The notes under the pieces are model-generated. The model searched no databases and had not been told where the DNA came from. It saw nothing but the letters and a program-made list of their open reading frames with translations. From Gemmatimonadaceae bacterium (GTDB lineage: Bacteria; Gemmatimonadota; Gemmatimonadetes; Gemmatimonadales; Gemmatimonadaceae), in NCBI GenBank assembly GCA_020851035.1, contig JADZDM010000014.1, positions 1 to 64,000 of the forward strand: 64,000 nucleotides of DNA, read 5' to 3'. Below, piece after piece: positions 3,265 through 14,914 of the stretch. A program made the position numbers and the translations under genes. The number at the start of each line of letters is the position of its first letter. Within the stretch, counting starts at the first letter, position 1.

Positions 3265-4116
3265 CTACCGCTCCCCCCCCACCTCCCCCACCCGCTGCTC
3301 CACCCGCATCACGAACCGCATCGGCGGCATCCCCCCCTGACCGACCATCACCGCCCGCATCGTCATCAGCATCCGCGACCGCGTGATCCACCCCCGCCGA
3401 CGGTCCAGCAGCACCCACCCGGTCACGCTCGCCCCCGCATCCACCGCCACGTCCTTCATCAGCCCGCGCACCGACACCCACGCGAAGTCGCCGAAGTGCG
3501 TCAGCGAGTCGAGCGTGAATTGCACATCGATGCCGTCGCCCGGCGCGCCGGCCAGCGCCATGTGCCGCGTCCAGCGCTCCCGCGCCCGCACCGGCGTCAC
3601 GGGCAGCGCCGCCGGCACCCGGTCCACCAGCGCCGCCAGCGTCGCGATCGTGGCCGCGGTCTGCACCGACGCATCGTCCAGCACGATCAACTCACCATCC
3701 GGCGCCACCTTCATCCGCAGCGTGCGCCCCTGCAGCGCCATCCCGCTCGCGATCCGCGCCCGCCGGCTCTCCTCCTTGCCGCCGGTGGCCCGCACGGTCA
3801 CGCTCTCCACCAGCGACGTGACCACCGCCCCCAGCGAGTCCACCGCGTCCACCCGCGACCGCAGCACCACCATCGTGCGCGTGCTCACACGCACCGTGGA
3901 ATCACCACCCGCCAGCGCGATGGTGCCCTGCTCGTCCACGTCGTGCTCCACACGCTGGCGGATCATCTCGCCGGGATAGGGCCGCAGCACCAGCATCACC
4001 CGCAGGTCGGCGGGCGCCCGCGGGGCCGCCGCGCGCGCCCGCTGCGCCTGCAGCGATCCACACGCCAGCAGCACCAGCGCGGCACCGCGCCACACGTCAG
4101 AAACCGTACGGATCAT
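3265..4116 (-). CDS. Secreted DUF6263-like protein
   Basis: 283 aa from the ATG at 4116. The first 25 residues (MIRTVSDVWRGAALVLLACG, then SLQAQ) form a Sec signal peptide, possibly lipoprotein-like through LLACG. The rest is a β-rich domain with phrases such as RMKVAPDGELIVLDD and GWVLLDRRRGWI, typical of DUF6263-type periplasmic proteins with no known function. Its start overlaps the 3' end of herA (stop at 4097) by 20 bp, so translation is probably coupled. It is the last gene of the five-gene operon that begins at 8616. The family assignment is by sequence feel and is moderate. Confidence 0.6.
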   Translation of the reverse strand: MIRTVSDVWRGAALVLLACGSLQAQRARAAAPRAPADLRVMLVLRPYPGEMIRQRVEHDVDEQGTIALAGGDSTVRVSTRTMVVLRSRVDAVDSLGAVVTSLVESVTVRATGGKEESRRARIASGMALQGRTLRMKVAPDGELIVLDDASVQTAATIATLAALVDRVPAALPVTPVRARERWTRHMALAGAPGDGIDVQFTLDSLTHFGDFAWVSVRGLMKDVAVDAGASVTGWVLLDRRRGWITRSRMLMTMRAVMVGQGGMPPMRFVMRVEQRVGEVGGER

Positions 4117-6082
4117 CACCACCGGGCAGGGCGAGGGGCTGGACGAGCGGCTGCGGCACACCCAGCGGACGGGGGGCCACCTGCCGCCGGAACTGCGCCG
4201 TGAAATACGTTCGGACATCCCGCGGCTGTTCCCGCTCGGTGGCACGCACCGCACGCAGCACGTCCGCCTCGTCCACCAGCGCAGTGGCACTGCGCAGCCA
4301 GTCCAGCGTCAGCCCACCCTCCAGGCGCCGCAGCCGGCGCAGCATCGCGGCGTCGAACTCCTCCACCGGCGCCGCCGGGAACCGCTCCACCCCGGCGCGA
4401 CCGGTGAGCACGCTGGGTCGCGGGAACCGCACGAAGACGGGCTGCGAGAAATGGGGGTGCCGGACCATCAACTGCCCCTTGTCGAGGGTGGACAACTTCG
4501 TCCGGACGGCCGGACTCAGCACCGCATACCCCGGTGTGGCCAGTTCGTCGCCATCCATCCGCCCGTAGAGCGCCGTGCCGGCATTCCCCACCACCCGCTT
4601 GTGCACCTGGCTGCGGAACTGCTGGGCCGAGAAGAGCACCATCCCCAGGTAGCGGCCCCGCTCGGCGATGTCGAGCAGCATCCGGCGCACGTAGGTCTCG
4701 GGCCCGTCACCGGGCGCGTACTTGTTCAACTCGTCCACGAACACCACCACGTGGTTCACCCCCAGGTCGCGGCGCTCGAGGTGCTCGCGCAGCTTGCTGA
4801 CGACGCGCGCGAAGATCAGCCCCTGCGCATCCTCCTCCAGGTTCGCGACGTCGATCACGTGCACCGAACGATCCGCGAAGGTGCCGAACGGCAGGTCGCT
4901 CACGTCGGCACCGTCCGTCACCAGGCCGGCACAGCGCGTGGCCAGGTTCACGAGGCGGTTGCGCACCTTGCGCACGGTGGCCACGTGGTGCGTGCGCCAC
5001 GTCTGCGCGTCCTTGCGTTCCAGCCCGTCCAGCAGCGTGCGGAACCACGCATCCAGGTCGGCGAAGGTCTGCACCACCATCTCGCCGCCGATCAGCGGGT
5101 CGCTGAACTTCTGGCCCACCACGCGGTCGGTGATGAAGTCGATCAGCGCATCGGCCTTGGCGTCGATGTCCTCGCGGTCCAGCAGCACGCCGGCATACTG
5201 CAGCACCTCGCGCAATCCCCACGTGAGCGGCTGCACGTTGTGCAGCAGCGCCTCGTTGCTCCGGATGGTCGCCAGTCCGCGCAAGGCCGCGTCGTAGGGG
5301 GCGTAGTATTGCACGTTCGCGAACGGTGCGGCCGGCACGCCGAGTTTCTCGTACATCGCCAGGTCGTCCGGCGCGAGCGTGGCCGGCTGGTCGAGGTAGA
5401 GCAGGTCGGGGCCCTTCACGTTGAAGCAGACCGCCGCCACCGAGCCCTTCTCCGCCGGGAAGTGCTGGAAGATCGACTGCAGCAGCCACTCCACGGCACT
5501 CGTCTTCGTCGCCAGCCCGCTCACGCCGGTGATGTTCAGGTGCGCGGCCTCGGGGCCGAGCAGGAAGTCGGCGTCGAGGTACACCGGGCTCTCGGTGCCA
5601 CCGCTGCGGTACAGCCCCACCGGGATCGCGGTGCGGTGGTCGGAGGCGAGGTAGCTGTCCATCCGCAGTGCCAGCGCGACATCCGCGTCGTCCGCCAGCC
5701 AGACGGTGCCCATCGGCACCGGCTGCAGCGGCTCGTCGGGCATGTGGCGCAGCACGCTGGCGGTGTAAAGCCGGATCTCGGTGCGCTGCGTCGCCACCAG
5801 GCCGCCGTCGGGTTGCCCGTCGCGGCCGAGCACGTCGTCCAGCGGCGAGAGCATGTCGGTCCAGCCCTGCCCCTCCATCACCACGCCGAACACCTGCGGC
5901 ACGTGGCCGTTCACCGCCAGGCTGCCGTCCACGCGCACGATGGTGCCGATGCCGACATTCGCGTCCAGCGCCGTCCAGAAGTGGAACTCGTGCGGCGTGC
6001 TCGGGCGGCGCTCGGTGGCCACCACACGGCCCAGCGGGCGGCGGGTGTCGTCTGCAGGCAGGTCAATCATGTCGGACATCAT
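4097..6082 (-). CDS. herA: HerA-like hexameric DNA-translocating ATPase
   Basis: About 661 aa from the ATG at 6082; a second ATG follows immediately at 6079. The N-terminal ~100 residues look like the HAS β-barrel. The P-loop is GVSGLATKT at residues 186-194, Walker B is VVVFVDELN with Asp450 and Glu451, and an arginine-rich sensor segment AERGRYLGMVLFSAQQFRS follows, as in the DUF87/HerA-FtsK ATPases. HerA forms a hexameric ring that feeds DNA to the NurA nuclease for end resection. nurA ends 37 bp upstream on the same strand, which is the classical pairing. In bacteria HerA partners act either in repair or in phage defence; the cas genes lie about 1 kb downstream. Confidence 0.85.
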   Translation of the reverse strand: MMSDMIDLPADDTRRPLGRVVATERRPSTPHEFHFWTALDANVGIGTIVRVDGSLAVNGHVPQVFGVVMEGQGWTDMLSPLDDVLGRDGQPDGGLVATQRTEIRLYTASVLRHMPDEPLQPVPMGTVWLADDADVALALRMDSYLASDHRTAIPVGLYRSGGTESPVYLDADFLLGPEAAHLNITGVSGLATKTSAVEWLLQSIFQHFPAEKGSVAAVCFNVKGPDLLYLDQPATLAPDDLAMYEKLGVPAAPFANVQYYAPYDAALRGLATIRSNEALLHNVQPLTWGLREVLQYAGVLLDREDIDAKADALIDFITDRVVGQKFSDPLIGGEMVVQTFADLDAWFRTLLDGLERKDAQTWRTHHVATVRKVRNRLVNLATRCAGLVTDGADVSDLPFGTFADRSVHVIDVANLEEDAQGLIFARVVSKLREHLERRDLGVNHVVVFVDELNKYAPGDGPETYVRRMLLDIAERGRYLGMVLFSAQQFRSQVHKRVVGNAGTALYGRMDGDELATPGYAVLSPAVRTKLSTLDKGQLMVRHPHFSQPVFVRFPRPSVLTGRAGVERFPAAPVEEFDAAMLRRLRRLEGGLTLDWLRSATALVDEADVLRAVRATEREQPRDVRTYFTAQFRRQVAPRPLGVPQPLVQPLALPGGDDPYGF

Positions 6083-6119
6083 CTCGCACGATACGGCTCG
6101 GTGAAACGGGGATCGAACG

Positions 6120-7127
6120 TCAGGCCACCGCACGGAGGTACACTTCGCAGTCACGGATGGCGTACGGCATCACGTCCCAGCGCGAATCCGGGCGCGCCAG
6201 TGGTGCGCGCTCCGCCAGCAGCCAGCGACTCACGCGATCGGCGTGCCCCTCGGCGGCGGCGGCATCCATCTCGCGTGCCCCGGTCTCGACCCGGACCAGC
6301 CCGAAGAAGGGATCGTGCCCGCTGGCGCTGCGCAGGCGCAGGTACCACGTGAGGAAGTGCGGGTTCCCGTCGCCGCCGAATGCGGTGATGCAGGAGGTGC
6401 GCTGGCCGGACGCGAGGGACGTCACCAGCGGCAGGGCATCATCGGGGAGGTAGAGCGTGGCATGGCTCTTCACCACGCCCACCACGCCGGTGCTGCGCAA
6501 CATCGCGCGGCTCGACCGCAGCGAGCCGTCCACGTACAGCGCGCGGGACGGGTGCGCACTGCACCAGGCCTCGCCCATGTCACGTTCCAGGTCGTTGCGC
6601 ACGCGCGAGAGGCCGTCGAGCGCCTGCCGCAGCAGTGCGGACGGATGGCGGGACGGCACCGGGAGGTCGTCGTCGGTGTCGCGCAGCAGGTGGCCGCGCG
6701 TGTCGAGGATGTCACAGAGCGCCGCCCACGTGGCGTCGCCGATGAGTGCCCGCGACCCGTACACCGCGTGATCCACGGCCGGCCGGAGCCAGGTGGCCAT
6801 GCGCCCCTCGAAGTCGCGCTCGCGGATGGCCGCCGCCGCGGTGCCGTGCAGCAGGGGCACGCCGTCGAGGTAGGCCACCGTGGCGCTGCGCTGGATGCCG
6901 TCCAGGAACCCCTCGAACGCCGCCACGACCGGTGCCTCCACGTCCAGCACGCGGAGCACGCCGCCCACGGGTTCCACGTTGGCCTGCTGCACGAGCGGCG
7001 TGTTGTCCTGCGCCAGGGCCTCGAGGCGATCCGGGCCGGCGAGGCGGACCCGATCGCCGAGTGATGCGCGCAGCACGCTGCGCGCCACCTCCACGGCACG
7101 GCCGGCAGGCGGTGCCGACGTGCTCAC
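6120..7127 (-). CDS. nurA: NurA-domain nuclease
   Basis: 335 aa from a GTG at 7127. The start shares GTGA with the stop of the preceding Lrp/AsnC-domain gene, which decides the start. The NurA fold is suggested by RALYVDGSLRSS (metal-binding DGS motif), followed about 15 residues later by GVVGVVKSH, and by the C-terminal WDVMPYAIRDCEVYLRA. NurA is a 5'-3' exonuclease and ssDNA endonuclease that sits on the HerA ring and resects double-strand ends. The gene precedes herA by 37 bp. Sequence divergence from archaeal NurA is high, so the assignment rests partly on the herA neighbour. Confidence 0.78.
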   Translation of the reverse strand: MSTSAPPAGRAVEVARSVLRASLGDRVRLAGPDRLEALAQDNTPLVQQANVEPVGGVLRVLDVEAPVVAAFEGFLDGIQRSATVAYLDGVPLLHGTAAAAIRERDFEGRMATWLRPAVDHAVYGSRALIGDATWAALCDILDTRGHLLRDTDDDLPVPSRHPSALLRQALDGLSRVRNDLERDMGEAWCSAHPSRALYVDGSLRSSRAMLRSTGVVGVVKSHATLYLPDDALPLVTSLASGQRTSCITAFGGDGNPHFLTWYLRLRSASGHDPFFGLVRVETGAREMDAAAAEGHADRVSRWLLAERAPLARPDSRWDVMPYAIRDCEVYLRAVA

Positions 7128-7402
7128 TCCACGCCGAGGTCCCACGCCTGCTCGAGATCCCGCTTCGAGTAGGCGCGGAAGGCGGTGAGCGTCTGCGTGC
7201 GCACGATGCCCGGCACCGTGATGAACTCCTCGGTCACCACCCGCGCGATGTCGTCCAGCTCCGGCACGCGCACGATCGCCACCAGGTCCCACGCCCCGCT
7301 CACCGAGTACACCTCGGCCACACCGCGGATCTCGGCCAGTTTCGTGGCCGTGGCCGGGATGCTGGCGGGTTCCGCCTGGATCAGCACGATGGTCGTGATC
7401 AT
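7124..7402 (-). CDS. Stand-alone Lrp/AsnC effector (RAM) domain protein
   Basis: 92 aa, only the ligand-sensing α/β domain of the Lrp/AsnC family: ITTIVLIQAEPASIPATATK, GVAEVYSVSGAWDLVAIVRV, VPGIVRTQTLTAF. The N-terminal helix-turn-helix that binds DNA is absent, so this is not a repressor by itself. It may modulate another Lrp protein or sense amino acids. Its ATG shares ATGA with the end of the aminotransferase gene and its stop overlaps the nurA start, so it is locked inside the operon. Confidence 0.85.
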   Translation of the reverse strand: MITTIVLIQAEPASIPATATKLAEIRGVAEVYSVSGAWDLVAIVRVPELDDIARVVTEEFITVPGIVRTQTLTAFRAYSKRDLEQAWDLGVE

Positions 7403-8616
7403 GCGGACACCCGCGTGAGGGACCGGTACGTTTCACAGATGCGCCGCACTGCCTCCAGCACGTCGGCTTCGGCCGCCGCGTAGCTGAGGCGCACCCAGCC
7501 CGGTGTGCCGAACGCGGTGCCGGGCACGATCGCCACGCCGTGTTCCTCGAGCATCTTCGCCGCGAACACGGTGCCGGCGTCATCACCGCCGCCGCTGATC
7601 GCACTCACGTCGAGGTAGAAGTAGAAGGCGCCGGAGGGGTGGATGTAGGGTGGCGCCCCCGCCTCGTCCAGGATCACCATCGCCGCATCGCGCCGCGCGC
7701 GGAAGGCGCGCACCATCGCGGTGATGCTCTCCTCGGCGGCGTCACGCTCCGTGAGCGCCGTGAGGGCGGCGTACTGGCTGGGCGTGGCGGCGTTCGACGT
7801 GGTGTGGCTCTGCAGGTCTGTCATCGCCTTCGCGACGGCCCGCGGCGCCACCGCCCAGCCGATGCGCCACCCCGTCATCGCGTACGACTTCGCGACCCCG
7901 TCCACGATCACCAGGTTCGAACGGTCCGTCACGAGCTCCAGCGCACTCACCGCCGGCACCTCGTAGGAGATGCGCCGGTAGATCTCGTCGCTCAGCACCC
8001 ACCAGCCGCGCGCGCGCGCCAGCGCCAGGATGTCGCGCAGGACGGCGGCATCCCAGGTGGCGCCGGTGGGGTTGCTCGGCGAGTTCAGCATCAGGCCGCG
8101 GGTGCGCGGCGTGGCCGCCGCCTCGAGATCGGCGACCGTCACCTGGAAGCCGTTGGCCGGATTCCCCATCACGGCCACCGGCGTCGCCCTGGCGAGGGCC
8201 ACGATCTCCACGTAGCTCGTCCAGGCCGGCGTGGGGATCAGCACCTCGTCACCGGCGCCGAAGAGCGTGAAGCAGGCGTTGAAGAGCGTCTGCTTGCTGC
8301 CGTTGCTGACCACCACGTCGGCGGCGGTGGGCGCATCGGCCACCGCGCCGGCCCAGCGGTCGGCGGCGTGGCTGGCGATGGCCTCGCGCAGCGGCAGGAT
8401 GCCCTCGGTGGCGGTGTACTTGGTGTGTCCGGCGGCCACGGCGCGGGCGGCGCCGGCCTTCACGAAGTCCGGGGTGTCGAAGTCCGGCTCCCCCACCCCC
8501 AGGTCGATGATCTGGCGGCCCTGCGCCTTCAGCGCCTTGGCCCGCGTCGAGACGGCGATCGTCGCCGAGGGGCGAAGCTGGGCGATGTTCGGGGACGGGA
8601 CGAACTCGGCAGGCAT
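7399..8616 (-). CDS. aspC: Class I/II PLP-dependent aminotransferase (aspartate aminotransferase type)
   Basis: 405 aa, normal for AAT subgroup Iγ. Visible motifs are DLGVGEPDFDTPDFV near the N terminus, NSPSNPTGATW (substrate-binding Asn), LSDEIYRRI (Asp that contacts the PLP pyridine) and the Schiff-base lysine in GVAKSYAMTGWRIGW; the C-terminal Arg is in GWVRLSYA. It transfers the amino group between aspartate or a related amino acid and 2-oxoglutarate. It is the first gene of the operon with the AsnC-domain protein, nurA, herA and the DUF6263-like gene. The gene symbol is by subgroup only; the substrate is not certain. Confidence 0.88.
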   Translation of the reverse strand: MPAEFVPSPNIAQLRPSATIAVSTRAKALKAQGRQIIDLGVGEPDFDTPDFVKAGAARAVAAGHTKYTATEGILPLREAIASHAADRWAGAVADAPTAADVVVSNGSKQTLFNACFTLFGAGDEVLIPTPAWTSYVEIVALARATPVAVMGNPANGFQVTVADLEAAATPRTRGLMLNSPSNPTGATWDAAVLRDILALARARGWWVLSDEIYRRISYEVPAVSALELVTDRSNLVIVDGVAKSYAMTGWRIGWAVAPRAVAKAMTDLQSHTTSNAATPSQYAALTALTERDAAEESITAMVRAFRARRDAAMVILDEAGAPPYIHPSGAFYFYLDVSAISGGGDDAGTVFAAKMLEEHGVAIVPGTAFGTPGWVRLSYAAAEADVLEAVRRICETYRSLTRVSA

Positions 8617-8847: not shown

Positions 8848-11010
8848 GTGCCCAAGGCCGATAACGCCGCCCCGTCCGCCCCGAAGGTCACCCGCAACCA
8901 GCAGGTGGTCCTCACCGCCCCGCCCACCGTGGCGGCGATGGTCTCGCTCGTCCAGCCCGCCCTCGAGCGGCTGCCCGCCGGATCGGCTGGGGTGCATCTC
9001 GTCATCCTCGTGCCCGACGCCGATACCGCGCTCGCCGTGGCGCAGGCCGTCCTGCCCGCCGGCGATGCCGCGCCGGTGCTGGTGCCCATGACCTCCGCCA
9101 CTCGCGGCGCCCGCCTGCTGGCCGGCAAGCCCGCGGCGATCGTCGGGGCGCCCGCCGACCTGGCGGCGCTGCTGCCGAGCGGCCTGCTCAAGCTCGAGGG
9201 GGTCACGCAGCTCCTCGTGCTGCAGGCCGACCTCACCCTCGCCCTCGCCGACGAGCCGTCGATCACGACGCTCATGACCGAGCTGCCGAAGGACATCGCG
9301 CGCACGCTCACCATGGCCGGCGAGACCGATGCCGTGACGGCGTTCGCGAAGGCCTACATGAAGCGCCCCCGCCGCGTGGGTGACGACGTGATGGCCGAGG
9401 GCAGCGCCCCGGTCAGTGTGCACTACGTGCTGACCAGTGCCGCCACGCGGCCGGCCACGCTCCGGCGTGTGCTGGATGCCGTCAATGCACCGTCGGCGGT
9501 GGTCGTCGCGGCCGAGCCGGCGCAGCTCGCCGAGGCGGGTTCCGCTCTCCGCGCGCTGGGATACGACGCCGCGCAGGGTGACGTGCAGGCCACCGCCGGC
9601 CCGGTCACCGCGCACAGCGTGCTGCGCGTGCTCTACGACGTGCCGGCCTCCCGCGCCGCACTCGACGCCGCCATCGGTGGTGCCCCGGTGCAGGTGATCG
9701 TGCTCGTCACGCCGCGCCAGGTGCCGCACCTGCGCGCCCTGCTCGCCGGCGGGTCGCTCACCTTCTTCATCCTCCCCGACACCATGGCCCATGCCGTGGG
9801 CCGCGACGGCGCCCGCATGGGTGAGCTGCGGAAGATCCTCGCCGAGGGCGTGAGCGCCCGCGAGCTCGCCGCGCTCGAGCCGCTGCTGGACGAACACGAC
9901 GCCATGGAAGTGGCCGCGGCGGCGCTGCGCCTGCTGGAGCGCGAGCGTGAGACGGCGAAGGCCCTGCGCATCGGTGTCACCACCGCGCAGCCGAAGGACG
10001 TGAAGCGTGCCCTGGCAGCGACGGCCGCGCAGGACGCCGGCGCCGCCCCGATGACGGCACCGGCACCGATGGCAGCCCCGGCGCCGACGGCACCCGCCGC
10101 ACCGTCGCCGATCGCCGCGGACGGCACCCCGCACGAGTTCGTGGTGCTGTGGCTCAACATCGGCAACGATGACGGCGCGACCGCCTCGTCGTTCGTCGGC
10201 GCGATCACCGGTGAGACCGGCCTCGATCGCAGCGTCGTCGGCAGCATCGACCTCCGTGACAGCCACACGCTGGTCGAGGTCTCGGGTGCACACGCCGAGC
10301 AGATCGTGGCCGCGATGAACGGCACCACCATGCGCAACCGGCAGGTGATCGCCCGCATCGATCGTGTCGGCCCGATGCGCACCACGCGCAGCGCGCCGGC
10401 CGGCCGCGGCGGTGATCGCCCTGGGGCAGGCCGCAGCAGCGGCGGCTTCTCGCGCGATCGTGGCGATCGTCCGGCGCGTCCGTCCTTCCGCCGCGACGAG
10501 GGTGATGCGCCCCGCGAGCGCAGCGGCTATCCGCGCCGCGACGCCGGTGACCGGCCGGCCCGGCCGTCGTTCTCGCGCGATGATCGTCCCGCGCGTCCGC
10601 CGCGTGAGGGAGGCTTCTCGCGCGACGAGCGTCCGGCGCGCCCGTTCAGCCGCGACGACCGTCCTGCACGGCCGCCGCGTGAGGGCGGCTTCTCGCGTGA
10701 CGACCGCCCGGCCCGTCCGTTCAGCCGCGACGACCGTCCCTCCCGTCCGCCGCGCGAGGGTGGGTTCTCGCGTGACGACCGGCCGGCCCGCCCGCCCCGC
10801 AGCGGAGGCTTCAGCCGTGACGAGCGTCCGGCGCGGCCTGCCGGTGGTGGCTTCAGCCGTGCCCCGCGTGACGCGGGCGCCCCGACCAGCCGCGGCTTCA
10901 CCCGCGACCGCGGCGACGCCCCGTCCGGCCCGCGCACCGAAGGCAACGACTTCGCGGAGCGTGCCGAGCGCCTGCGCAATGCGCGCAAGCCGTCACGCAC
11001 GGAGGACTGA
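8848..11010 (+). CDS. Degenerate DEAD-box-like protein with DbpA RNA-binding domain and Arg-rich repeat tail
   Basis: About 720 aa from the GTG at 8848 ([13 protein letters not shown]); no better in-frame start exists because upstream sequence is antisense to aspC. Residues ~15-420 follow the layout of two RecA-like helicase domains, but key motifs are missing. There is no Walker [13 protein letters not shown] stands where TPGR would be, LLVLQADLT replaces VLDEAD, and the HRxGRxGR motif is not present. Residues ~430-505 ([20 protein letters not shown] to IARIDRVG) match the DbpA C-terminal RNA-binding domain. The last ~200 residues are a low-complexity, Arg/Asp/Pro-rich tail. The likely role is ATP-independent RNA binding, perhaps as a ribosome-assembly or RNA-chaperone factor; this is inference. 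tdk follows by 5 bp. Confidence 0.72.
10435..10925 (+). repeat. Coding repeats, [10 protein letters not shown] units
   Basis: Within the C-terminal tail of the degenerate helicase, units of the form (G/P)FSRD(D/E)RPARP recur about eight times, with shorter FSRAPRD and FTRDRGD variants near the end. Spacer sequences alternate between PPREGG and nothing, giving a two-unit higher-order period. The DNA is repetitive as well (GGCTTCTCGCG and CGTCCGGC recur), so length polymorphism between strains is expected. Confidence 0.9.
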
Positions 11011-11015
11011 CTGCG

Positions 11016-11630
11016 GTGAGCGACGGCTTCGTGACGTCCTCCGGCGGGTGGATCGAGGTGATCGCCGGCGTGATGTTCAGCGGCAAGAGTGAGGAGTTGA
11101 TGCGACGCGTGCGGCGGGCGACCATCGCCCGCAAGCGTGTCCAGGTGTTCAAGAGCCATCTCGACGATCGCTACACGGGGTTGTACAACGTCTCCAGTCA
11201 CGACGGCCGTGACCTGGAGGCGATTCCCGTGGACTCGGCGAGCCAGCTCGCACACCAGCTCGACCCCATGGCGCAGGTGGTGGCCGTGGACGAGGTGCAG
11301 TTCCTCGATGCCGGCATCATCGCGCTCGCCACGGCCCTGGCCGTGCGCGGGCGGCGCGTGATCCTCGCCGGCATCGACACCGACTTCCGCGGTGAGCCGT
11401 TCGGCGCCATGCCGCAGCTCATGGCGGTGGCCGAGCAGGTGACCAAGCTGCACGCGATCTGCGTGCTGTGCGGCAATCCCGCCAGCCGCAACCAGCGGCT
11501 GATCGACGGCAAGCCCGCCCGCTGGGACTCGCCGACGATCATGGTCGGTGCGGCGCAGTCGTACGAGGCGCGCTGCCGCGCCTGTCACCGCGTGCTGCTG
11601 GACGACGACGTGCAGGTGCCGCTGCTGTAG
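11016..11630 (+). CDS. tdk: Thymidine kinase (type II)
   Basis: 204 aa from a GTG at 11016, with a GGAGG ribosome-binding site at 11001-11005. The P-loop is [15 protein letters not shown] (residues ~17-31) and the catalytic segment is [11 protein letters not shown]. The C-terminal zinc lasso has CVLCGN and CRACH, and HVLL-type residues follow. The enzyme phosphorylates thymidine with ATP in the dTTP salvage pathway and is feedback-inhibited by dTTP in characterised members. It lies 5 bp after the degenerate helicase and is followed by a strong hairpin. Confidence 0.96.
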
Positions 11631-11711: not shown

Positions 11712-13742
11712 TCAGTCGTCGGGCGTGAGCCGGTCGAAGAGCGTCGCGATGCTGAAGCCGACGGGGTCGATCTCCATGTACCGGTTGTCGAGGTACCGCC
11801 CGGTGGTGGGGAAGTACGGCGGTGGCCGCAGGTTCGCACAGCGGTCGTAAGTGTACTGCTTGATGAACCCGGTGCCGTTGGTGGCGGTGAAGGTGCCCAC
11901 CGCGCCGCGGGCTTCCTGGATCAGGCCGCCCAGCAGCGCGAGGCAGCCCCGCCCGCGTTCCGTGCCGTTGCACGGGTTGCCGGTCACCTGGCCCTCGTCG
12001 TGGTTCTGCACGCGGAACGACATGTCCATCGCCATCACCACGCTGTGGAGCGTGAGGTCCTTGCTGTCGTCGAGCAGGCGGAAGCTGGTGGCGGCCGTCA
12101 CGTCGGCGTCGGTCTGGTTGTTCAGCATGTTGTCCGCCACCACCACGTCCTTGTCGGACAGGATGCCCAGCACGTCCACGCAGCGCCCGGTGGTCGCCGG
12201 GTTGGTGCCGTAGCGCAGGTCGTCGAGCACCACGGCCGTGCCGGTGGTGTGCAGCGTCACGCGACCCACCAGCAGCCCGCTCAGGCCGACGGTGCCGGAG
12301 ACGTTGATCACGCCGCGGGCGCCCGGGTTCACCGAGCGGTGCAGCGGGAAGAGGTAGGCGGCCTGGTTCGGGGCGCGCAGCAGCAGGCGCGGGTCGACCG
12401 CGCCACCGTACAGGCGCCAGGTGCCGTAGGCATCGGCGGGATCGAAGGTGGAGTTCGGCCCCACGTTCGTGCTGGTGCCACCGTACGAGGCCGGTGCCAG
12501 CTCCGCGAAGTTGAGCTCCGGCGCACCGCCCAGGAAACACTGCGACCGGTTGCCGGCCAGCAGCGCACCGCTGCGCGACAGGATGGAGCGCGTCTCGGCG
12601 GAGTTCAGCGGCGTCGTCTTGAAGTTCAGGCTGTTCACCATGTTGGTGCCGGCCACTGCGCCCAGCGCCGCCTGGAACCGCCCCAGCAGCCAGGTGCGCA
12701 CGGCGGTCTGCTCGTGTGCATTGGCGGTGAAGAAGCGGTCACCGAAGCCGGGCACGTTGATCCACTCGCCGCAGAGGCCCTTGCGGGTCACCAGGTCGGT
12801 GGAGAACAGCTCCTGGTCGCCGCGGATCCACGCAATGGACTGCGACGAGCCGCTGTTGGTCGTGTAGACGCGGATGAAGCCGTCCTGCGGATCGGTGGAG
12901 CTGCCATCGTTGTCGAGGTCGATGTTCACGAACTCGATGCGCATCCGGACCGTGGTCTCGTCGCCGTTGGACGGGGCCACGAAATTCAGCCGGCCGCTGG
13001 CGGCGTACGTCGCCATGTTGCTCAGCGCCGCCGGCGTGGGCATCGGGATCGGGATCGAGTGCTCCGTGTAGCCCTTCCAGAAGTCGGCCTGGTCGGGCTG
13101 GATGATCATCTTCGCGGTGCCCACCACGTCGCGGAACTGGGCCGCCCACGGCAGCGCCGCCTTGCTGGTGATGCGGATCGTGTCGTTGGACCAGGTCGGG
13201 CCGAACAGCACGTCACCGCTGCCGAACCAGATCGGGCCACTGCCGCGGTTCTCGCGGTTCGACCAGTAGGCGAAGCGGGCGAAGTTCTCCTGCGCCAGCT
13301 CGAGCCGGCGCACGACCTTCGCGCCGGTCTGGTCGGTGGCCTGCGCGATCACGGAACCGAACGCGCCGAACTGGCCGGTGGTGGCACCGGTCGGCCCGGC
13401 CCACACCCTGACCTGCACGCCCGGGATCACGTTGCCCGAGGCGTCCTTCAGCACGCCACCATTGAACGTGATCTCGCGGTAGCCGGACTCCGGCATCGCG
13501 TCGGGGTCGGCGTTGATGTAGCTCTTGCCCATCTGCAGCGCCGCATCGGCCGCGTACTGCAGGTCGGCGGCGCGGTTCGAGAGCCCGGTCGCCAGCTTGG
13601 TGCCGCTGGCGAGGTACACCGCCGACAGCGCCAGCGCACCGAGCGCCACCGTCAGGATGAGAGTGATGATGATCGCCATCCCTCGGCGATCCGCCGGTCG
13701 CGTCGTCGCGCCGGACACCGGAAGTCGGGTGGAGAGTCGCAT
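11712..13742 (-). CDS. PilX/GspK-like type IV pilus-associated protein
   Basis: 676 aa. The N terminus has a positively charged leader and the hydrophobic segment RRGMAIIITLILTVALGALAL (about residues 19-40), a class III prepilin-like signal without the Glu at +5, as in PilX and GspK proteins. The large secreted part contains VLKDASGNVIPGVQVRV, EINV-type β segments and several cysteines. It probably belongs to the pilus tip or priming complex made of minor pilins. Its ATG overlaps the PilW-like stop (TGATG) and it is the last gene of the operon that starts at 15890 or 16556. Confidence 0.7.
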   Translation of the reverse strand: MRLSTRLPVSGATTRPADRRGMAIIITLILTVALGALALSAVYLASGTKLATGLSNRAADLQYAADAALQMGKSYINADPDAMPESGYREITFNGGVLKDASGNVIPGVQVRVWAGPTGATTGQFGAFGSVIAQATDQTGAKVVRRLELAQENFARFAYWSNRENRGSGPIWFGSGDVLFGPTWSNDTIRITSKAALPWAAQFRDVVGTAKMIIQPDQADFWKGYTEHSIPIPMPTPAALSNMATYAASGRLNFVAPSNGDETTVRMRIEFVNIDLDNDGSSTDPQDGFIRVYTTNSGSSQSIAWIRGDQELFSTDLVTRKGLCGEWINVPGFGDRFFTANAHEQTAVRTWLLGRFQAALGAVAGTNMVNSLNFKTTPLNSAETRSILSRSGALLAGNRSQCFLGGAPELNFAELAPASYGGTSTNVGPNSTFDPADAYGTWRLYGGAVDPRLLLRAPNQAAYLFPLHRSVNPGARGVINVSGTVGLSGLLVGRVTLHTTGTAVVLDDLRYGTNPATTGRCVDVLGILSDKDVVVADNMLNNQTDADVTAATSFRLLDDSKDLTLHSVVMAMDMSFRVQNHDEGQVTGNPCNGTERGRGCLALLGGLIQEARGAVGTFTATNGTGFIKQYTYDRCANLRPPPYFPTTGRYLDNRYMEIDPVGFSIATLFDRLTPDD

Positions 13743-14914
13743 CAGGGCACCGTGATTTGGATGGCGGAAGTGAGCGCCGAGGGCGCTGGGGTGCAGTCGA
13801 GGGCGGAGATCGCGTACTCGTAGATCGTCCCGGACGCGACGGTGTTGTCGATGTACTGCAGCGACGACATGCCCGCCCCGGGCACGTTGGTCAGCGGCTC
13901 ACCCCAGTCCACCGCGCCGGCCAGGCGCCGGTAGACGGCGTACATCTCCACGTCGCGCTCGCCCGCCAGCTCGTCGGTGCTGGCATTCCACACCAGCTTC
14001 ACGGCCGGCAGGCCGGACAGCGTCACGATCGTCAGCGCCGGCGCGCCCGCGGCCAGCGGGCTCTCGCCGCACTGCGCGCGCTGCAGCAGCCCCTGGTTCG
14101 CGATCCGGATGTCGCGCGTCACGGTGTCGATGATGGTGCCGCCCTTCGAGTCGGTGTAGGTGGCGATCAGTGCGATCTTCACCACCGCGATCGAGTCGAT
14201 CAGCGCCGCGCTGCCGGTGTCGGCGGCCGCGCCGTGCTTCGACACGCTGTGGAACATCGGCAGCGAGCCCGCCGCCACCTGTGTCAGCACGCCAGACAGG
14301 TTGCGCTTGTAGTAGCGGAACACCGGCAGCCCGGTGGTCTGCACCAGGTTGCGTGCGATCACCTCGGGCGACTGCCGGTTCACCTTGCGGTACAGCACCA
14401 CCTTCTGCCCGCCGGGAATCGGCGAGGCGCCGGTGTCACTGACCACGTAGTAGTTGATCGTCTCGGCGTTGCTCACGTACGATGCCGTCGGGTAGGTGCT
14501 GGCCGAGTTCGGCAGCGTGATCGCCGTGCCGGTGTTGAGCGAGCCGAGCGCGGTGCTGTCAGCGTCCGGGTCGTAGAACACCGCCACCAGGTCGTTGGAG
14601 CGGGCCGTGACCATGTTGGCGTTGAAGGACACGGCGTTCACCGCCCCGCGGACCATCAGCGGCTGGCCGTCGAACACGCCGACCCCCGTGTTGCGCATGT
14701 CCTGCTCGATCGCATCGATGGCGAAGGTCGCCGACCGGGTGGCGTCCGTGCGCCCGGAGGTGCGGTTGACCGCCGCCGTCTGGGCCTGGTACAACGGTGC
14801 CGCCAGTGCGATCAGCACCAGCGTCACCGAGATCGCGATGAGCAGCTCGAGGGTGGTGAAGCCGGCTCGCAGCGTTCGCGCGCGCGGCATCGCGTGGACG
14901 AATGGCTGTGGCAT
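13742..14914 (-). CDS. PilW-like minor prepilin with a fibronectin type III-like C-terminal domain
   Basis: 390 aa. The leader MPQPFVHAMPRARTLRAG is followed by FTTLELLIAISVTLVLIALA, a class III prepilin signal with Gly-1 and Glu+5 that PilD-type peptidase would cleave and N-methylate. After the α1 helix comes a β-rich globular part with PilW-like INYYVVSDTG and YRKVNRQSPEVIARNL. The last ~100 residues (KLVWNASTDELAGERDVEMY, then YAISALD) look like a fibronectin type III fold, an unusual addition. Start and stop both overlap neighbours as TGATG, so translation is coupled. Confidence 0.82.
   Translation of the reverse strand: MPQPFVHAMPRARTLRAGFTTLELLIAISVTLVLIALAAPLYQAQTAAVNRTSGRTDATRSATFAIDAIEQDMRNTGVGVFDGQPLMVRGAVNAVSFNANMVTARSNDLVAVFYDPDADSTALGSLNTGTAITLPNSASTYPTASYVSNAETINYYVVSDTGASPIPGGQKVVLYRKVNRQSPEVIARNLVQTTGLPVFRYYKRNLSGVLTQVAAGSLPMFHSVSKHGAAADTGSAALIDSIAVVKIALIATYTDSKGGTIIDTVTRDIRIANQGLLQRAQCGESPLAAGAPALTIVTLSGLPAVKLVWNASTDELAGERDVEMYAVYRRLAGAVDWGEPLTNVPGAGMSSLQYIDNTVASGTIYEYAISALDCTPAPSALTSAIQITVP

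Follow-up and report, generated by a model that had tools for sequence, protein, structure and literature searches.

A 2022 paper lists only two proposed pseudohelicases, Utp25 and Deinococcus radiodurans PriA (PMC9539457). Utp25/Def is a conserved helicase-derived protein that has lost the DEAD and other motifs and has a non-enzymatic role (PMC9539457). D. radiodurans PriA is reported to be a bacterial helicase in which catalysis is lost and binding is kept (PMC4504706; cited in PMC9539457). Among active enzymes, CshA and DeaD (CsdA) are composed of RecA1, RecA2, dimerization helices and an RNA-binding domain (RBD), in this order. Thermus thermophilus Hera likewise has a core, a dimerization domain and an RBD, and is an active ATPase and helicase (PMC3695512). 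The RNA affinity of Hera comes mainly from the RBD including its C-terminal tail, and this tail is a main determinant (PMC3695512).

Here, we describe a protein encoded in the window, i.e., the whole stretch of 64,000 nucleotides analyzed, that is very probably a pseudohelicase derived from the DEAD-box family. We consider it rather probable that this protein arose as a paralogue of a CshA/DeaD-type helicase, is catalytically dead and functions in RNA binding independently of ATP. The gene, its parts and its two closest neighbors are as follows:

8848..11010, + strand: pseudohelicase gene, 720 aa (open reading frame from GTG at 8848 to TGA at 11010)
8887..9381, + strand: degenerate RecA1-like domain that lacks the Q-motif stretch and has lost Walker A and DEAD (hhalign, 350 columns; boundaries approximate, from the alignment)
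8920..8940, + strand: Walker A position, PPTVAAM for ATGTGKT (alignment)
9220..9231, + strand: DEAD position, LQAD; most members of the same family have AWAD or similar (alignment)
9409..9753, + strand: RecA2-like domain, shortened, with deletion of motifs V and VI and with LYDVPAS kept (alignments; boundaries approximate)
9817..9951, + strand: C-terminal helices matching the CshA/DeaD dimerization segment (match to the C-terminus of CshA, 5ivl)
10147..10356, + strand: DbpA-type RNA-binding domain (PF03880; Pfam E 3.3e-17)
10366..11007, + strand: low-complexity Arg-rich tail with repeats, net charge about +19 (sequence composition and charge)
7399..8616, − strand: class I/II aminotransferase, divergent neighbor of the pseudohelicase gene (PF00155, 6.5e-73; synteny)
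11016..11630, + strand: thymidine kinase, 5 nt 3' of the pseudohelicase stop codon (PF00265, 1.5e-48; synteny)

The protein thus consists of a degenerate DEAD-box core, a dimerization segment, an RBD and an Arg-rich tail of 215-216 aa. This is the domain order of CshA and DeaD; however, the ATPase and coupling motifs are lost, the Q-motif region is missing, RecA2 is shortened, and the pseudohelicase alone has a long Arg-rich tail after the RBD. Hera differs in being catalytically active, and D. radiodurans PriA in being a DNA replication-restart helicase and not a DEAD-box protein. Utp25/Def functions in the eukaryotic SSU processome, and we found neither a DbpA-type RBD nor a CshA dimerization segment described for it; there is no sign of orthology with the pseudohelicase, and we assume an independent origin. 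The GTG-PKAD (VPKAD) start is conserved in two congeners, whose proteins share 81-82% with the window protein through the end of the RBD. The gene is probably co-transcribed with the thymidine kinase gene; a scan for promoters and terminators at the locus found none.

Several lines of evidence support, at the level of profile alignment, an origin shared with DEAD-box helicases for both RecA regions, as the original prediction had claimed from the domain layout. First, a profile of 29 order-level orthologues aligned by hhalign to a profile of 7 canonical DEAD-box helicases from the same phylum over 350 columns (Prob 99.85, E 8.6e-31), while five column-shuffled profiles used as null controls gave Prob 0.1-0.2. 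The aligned span starts at the Walker A region, crosses the motif VI region and extends into the CshA-type C-terminal dimerization helices; it includes a segment that is NYDVPTS in the canonical paralogue and LYDVPAS in the window protein. Second, the best solved relative by sequence is the dimeric helicase CshA (PDB 5ivl, 7.6e-12), with a second matching stretch over the CshA C-terminus. Third, residues 36-249 give partial NCBIfam matches to DbpA (3.8e-14), CshA (3.5e-10) and also DeaD, all of them far under the curated cut-offs. The score against the DbpA equivalog NF008744 is 52.1 bits vs a cut-off of 524, and the protein is not a DbpA equivalog. The DbpA RNA-binding domain is its sole Pfam match. 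AlphaFold models of the protein had a mean pLDDT of 44 (1 sequence, 512 aa) and 40 (3 sequences, 498 aa), values too low for a fold to be read from them.

In the alignment, motifs Q, I, II, III, V and VI of the window protein are absent, deleted or replaced. The predicted loss of Walker A, DEAD and motif VI was borne out: PPTVAAM and LQAD stand at the first two positions, and HRIGRTGR is gone. A later replacement reads TMAG, motif V is likewise deleted or replaced, and the shortening of RecA2 removes residues neighboring motifs V and VI as well. None of the motifs that define an active DEAD-box helicase (I, II, Q, III, V and VI) was found and, judged by these motifs, the protein is not one; the loss of catalytic motifs in a conserved helicase-derived protein is what characterizes a pseudohelicase. 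Loss of these motifs characterizes the whole family, with INTERMEDIATES. In a motif table of 42 orthologues, comprising the 29 order-level members (families f1, f2 and f3) and 13 from other families of the class, the six motifs are gone in all 29 order-level proteins, in which the DEAD position is often AWAD or AWPE. Altogether, the alignments show what we read as loss of the ATPase and coupling motifs, with the dimerization segment kept and the RBD kept in most members.

The 13 class-level orthologues are intermediates. They lack motifs V and VI and read DGAS, DQAG or similar at the DEAD position, and most still have the Q motif. The Walker A lysine (GSGKT) persists in 5 of the 13, and in others Walker A is degraded to, e.g., GSGLT, GSGVT or GSGRT. 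This suggests that the DEAD glutamate and motifs V/VI were lost first, Walker A next and the Q motif last. The state of Walker A changed at least 4 times on the tree. The members that keep the lysine could still bind nucleotide, in line with a residual switch in which the core would bind nucleotide atypically and use it for conformational change without hydrolysis. However, every sampled order-level member, including the window protein, has lost the Q motif as well as the glycines and lysine of Walker A, and we regard such a switch as very improbable.

A large part of one bacterial class has pseudohelicase orthologues, and many of these share their chromosomal position. A profile search of the phylum gave a match in 279 of 298 genomes, which is an upper bound for orthologues because the weak class- and phylum-level matches include canonical helicases; we therefore rejected counting all 279 as orthologues (canonical helicases among the weaker class-level matches are, e.g., L062, L064 and L073-L077). 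The strong matches, in f1 to f3, are orthologues. A very diverged pseudohelicase (L138) was found in a genus in which the profile search had no match. In a maximum-likelihood tree, one branch (100/100) splits the canonical helicases from all pseudohelicases; long branches and the joint absence of motif columns weaken the finer topology. An exact-peptide-seeded scan of genome contigs returned congeners as the sole matches, and no plasmid relative was found.

The loss of the catalytic motifs, together with high-GC DNA in which long spurious open reading frames lie on the opposite strand, might be taken as signs of a decaying pseudogene or a misread frame. Against this, dN/dS (NG86) in the pseudohelicase frame is 0.11-0.17 between the window and its congeners for core and RBD, open frames are intact throughout the order, and synteny is conserved. 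These data refute a decaying pseudogene, and this explanation as a whole is scarcely credible. Aminotransferase (divergent), pseudohelicase and thymidine kinase follow one another in this order at most f1 and the examined f2 loci; the f3 locus retains the thymidine kinase flank, and in f4 and f5 it is the aminotransferase flank. The pseudohelicase gene thus lies beside thymidine kinase in three families (f1-f3). Motif loss is, by all these comparisons, family-wide, old (within the class) and under purifying selection, and the protein looks like a maintained non-enzymatic RNA-binding protein, not the product of a decaying gene.

Other genes at the locus are conserved as well. Two adjacent genes at 4097-6154 (−) and 6120-7127 (−) encode conserved proteins without a Pfam match and in relatives, too, accompany the aminotransferase/pseudohelicase/thymidine kinase block. 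By eye, the 4097-6154 product, with a Walker-like VTGVSGLATKTS and FVDELNKYAP, resembles a HerA-type ATPase, and the 6120-7127 product may be a NurA-like nuclease. On the other side, 11712-14914 (−) encodes two large proteins without a Pfam match that have a pilin-assembly (PilX/PilW-like) look; downstream of thymidine kinase, this pair is conserved within the genus as well as in G015 and G024. In the f5 genomes L101 and L102, the aminotransferase lies between the pseudohelicase and a canonical RBD-less DEAD-box helicase encoded ~4 kb away.

Pseudoenzymes often modulate or target an active partner. The original prediction had suggested searching the genome for a separate DbpA-type helicase, and such a protein is present: the canonical paralogue P0002 has GTGKT, DEAD, SAT and HRIGRTGR, the dimerization segment and a DbpA RBD of its own. 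Two further canonical DEAD-box proteins are encoded in the genome. The pseudohelicase might form a heterodimer with P0002 via the shared dimerization segment and modulate or target it. This segment is the part best conserved between the two (36% identity, compared with 19% in RecA1 and 28% in RecA2), and dimerization segment and RBD are both better conserved than the RecA parts. P0002-type paralogues occur, besides the window genome, in many f1 genomes, and the corresponding domain of Hera gives a stable dimer (PMC3695512). However, no P0002-like helicases were found in f2, in f3 or in several of the f1 genomes with a pseudohelicase. In many genomes, i.e., the f2 and f3 genomes examined and several of f1, the pseudohelicase is the single carrier of a DbpA-type RBD. 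Moreover, three near-complete genomes (G022, G031 and G037; 97-99%, draft assemblies) have no P0002-like match at 1e-30. Their best PF00270 matches score 96-111 bits vs 160-176 for canonical helicases and look like other superfamily-2 helicases, and we infer, from draft assemblies, that these genomes encode no canonical DEAD-box RNA helicase with a score in the usual range. To our knowledge, free-living bacteria of such genome size without any canonical DEAD-box RNA helicase are unusual. Because these three genomes show no canonical helicase of the usual strength, an obligate partnership is disfavored, and because P0002 orthologues or canonical matches are missing from genomes that keep the pseudohelicase, partnership with a canonical helicase is not its general function. 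We rejected an obligate heterodimer with P0002 as that general function, given the absence of P0002 from f2, f3 and several f1 genomes; a regulatory role toward P0002 is unlikely, and RBD-less DEAD-box helicases may be partners elsewhere.

The original prediction also held that a DbpA-like domain is kept, which in DbpA recognizes 23S rRNA, and suggested an ATP-independent ribosome-assembly or RNA-condensing factor. Retention of the domain was confirmed by the PF03880 profile search it had proposed: the domain covers residues 434-503 with E 3.3e-17 and 62.7 bits vs a gathering cut-off of 25.6. Recognition of 23S rRNA by the window protein is not supported, and roles in ribosome assembly or RNA condensation are speculative. 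The RBD of YxiN reads the hairpin-92 loop (PMC3695512), and a ribosome-assembly factor that reads hairpin 92 of 23S rRNA through the DbpA domain would fit the presence of this domain as well as the precedent of Utp25, a DEAD-box pseudohelicase in ribosome assembly (PMC9539457). The main-chain guanine contact of YxiN, I436-G437-x-I439, maps to V-G-S-I in the window RBD, so that the VG.I segment is kept. YxiN K427 maps to Gly, which does not exclude hairpin-92 reading because E. coli DbpA also has Gly there. As far as hairpin-92 specificity is concerned, the RBD sequence is equivocal. However, among solved RBDs, DeaD (5b88, 4.1e-4) is nearer to the window RBD than YxiN (2.1e-3) or DbpA (9.3e-3), and the RBD of Hera, with the same fold, recognizes GGGPyr in single-stranded RNA rather than the loop of hairpin 92 (PMC3695512). 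In addition, the RBD is acidic in the genus and has been lost in several lineages, its state changing at least 5 times on the tree; it is missing in 8 of the 29 sampled order-level orthologues, all eight from f1 and with Arg-rich C-termini. A dedicated reader of hairpin 92 is, thus, doubtful at best.

The net charges of the window protein are −3 for the RBD, −8 for the core and +19 for the tail; because the RBD is acidic and the core net negative, RNA binding may rest on the tail. Across members, tail charge goes up as RBD charge goes down (rho −0.66, n=33, with just 3 phylogenetically independent pairs). This trade-off, merely suggestive because members share ancestry, is consistent with both parts serving RNA binding. 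It would appear that contact with RNA has moved between the RBD and the tail, and a general RNA scaffold or chaperone fits better than a strictly 23S-specific factor; we give this scaffold/chaperone function an even chance. We suggest that the degenerate core would serve as a structural spacer, that the pseudohelicase would dimerize via its CshA-type C-terminal helices, and that the RBD and the Arg-rich tail would hold RNA without ATP. The protein may, then, act as a scaffold, annealer or chaperone on structured RNA, possibly rRNA.

A search confined to the open-access literature found no bacterial DEAD-box pseudohelicase. Such a family is, therefore, apparently undescribed so far, and its novelty is provisional in view of that scope. 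Tentatively, and as a fairly unlikely extension, a class-wide pseudohelicase family may have taken over ATP-free RNA remodeling, with some lineages dispensing with canonical DEAD-box helicases and carrying a DbpA-type RBD in this protein alone, and with living intermediates that record the order of motif loss. A widespread bacterial pseudohelicase family with intermediates allows tests of what function a DEAD-box scaffold has in the absence of ATP. It also makes testable whether dimerization, an RBD and an Arg-rich tail alone can remodel RNA, notably in bacteria in which no canonical helicase was found.
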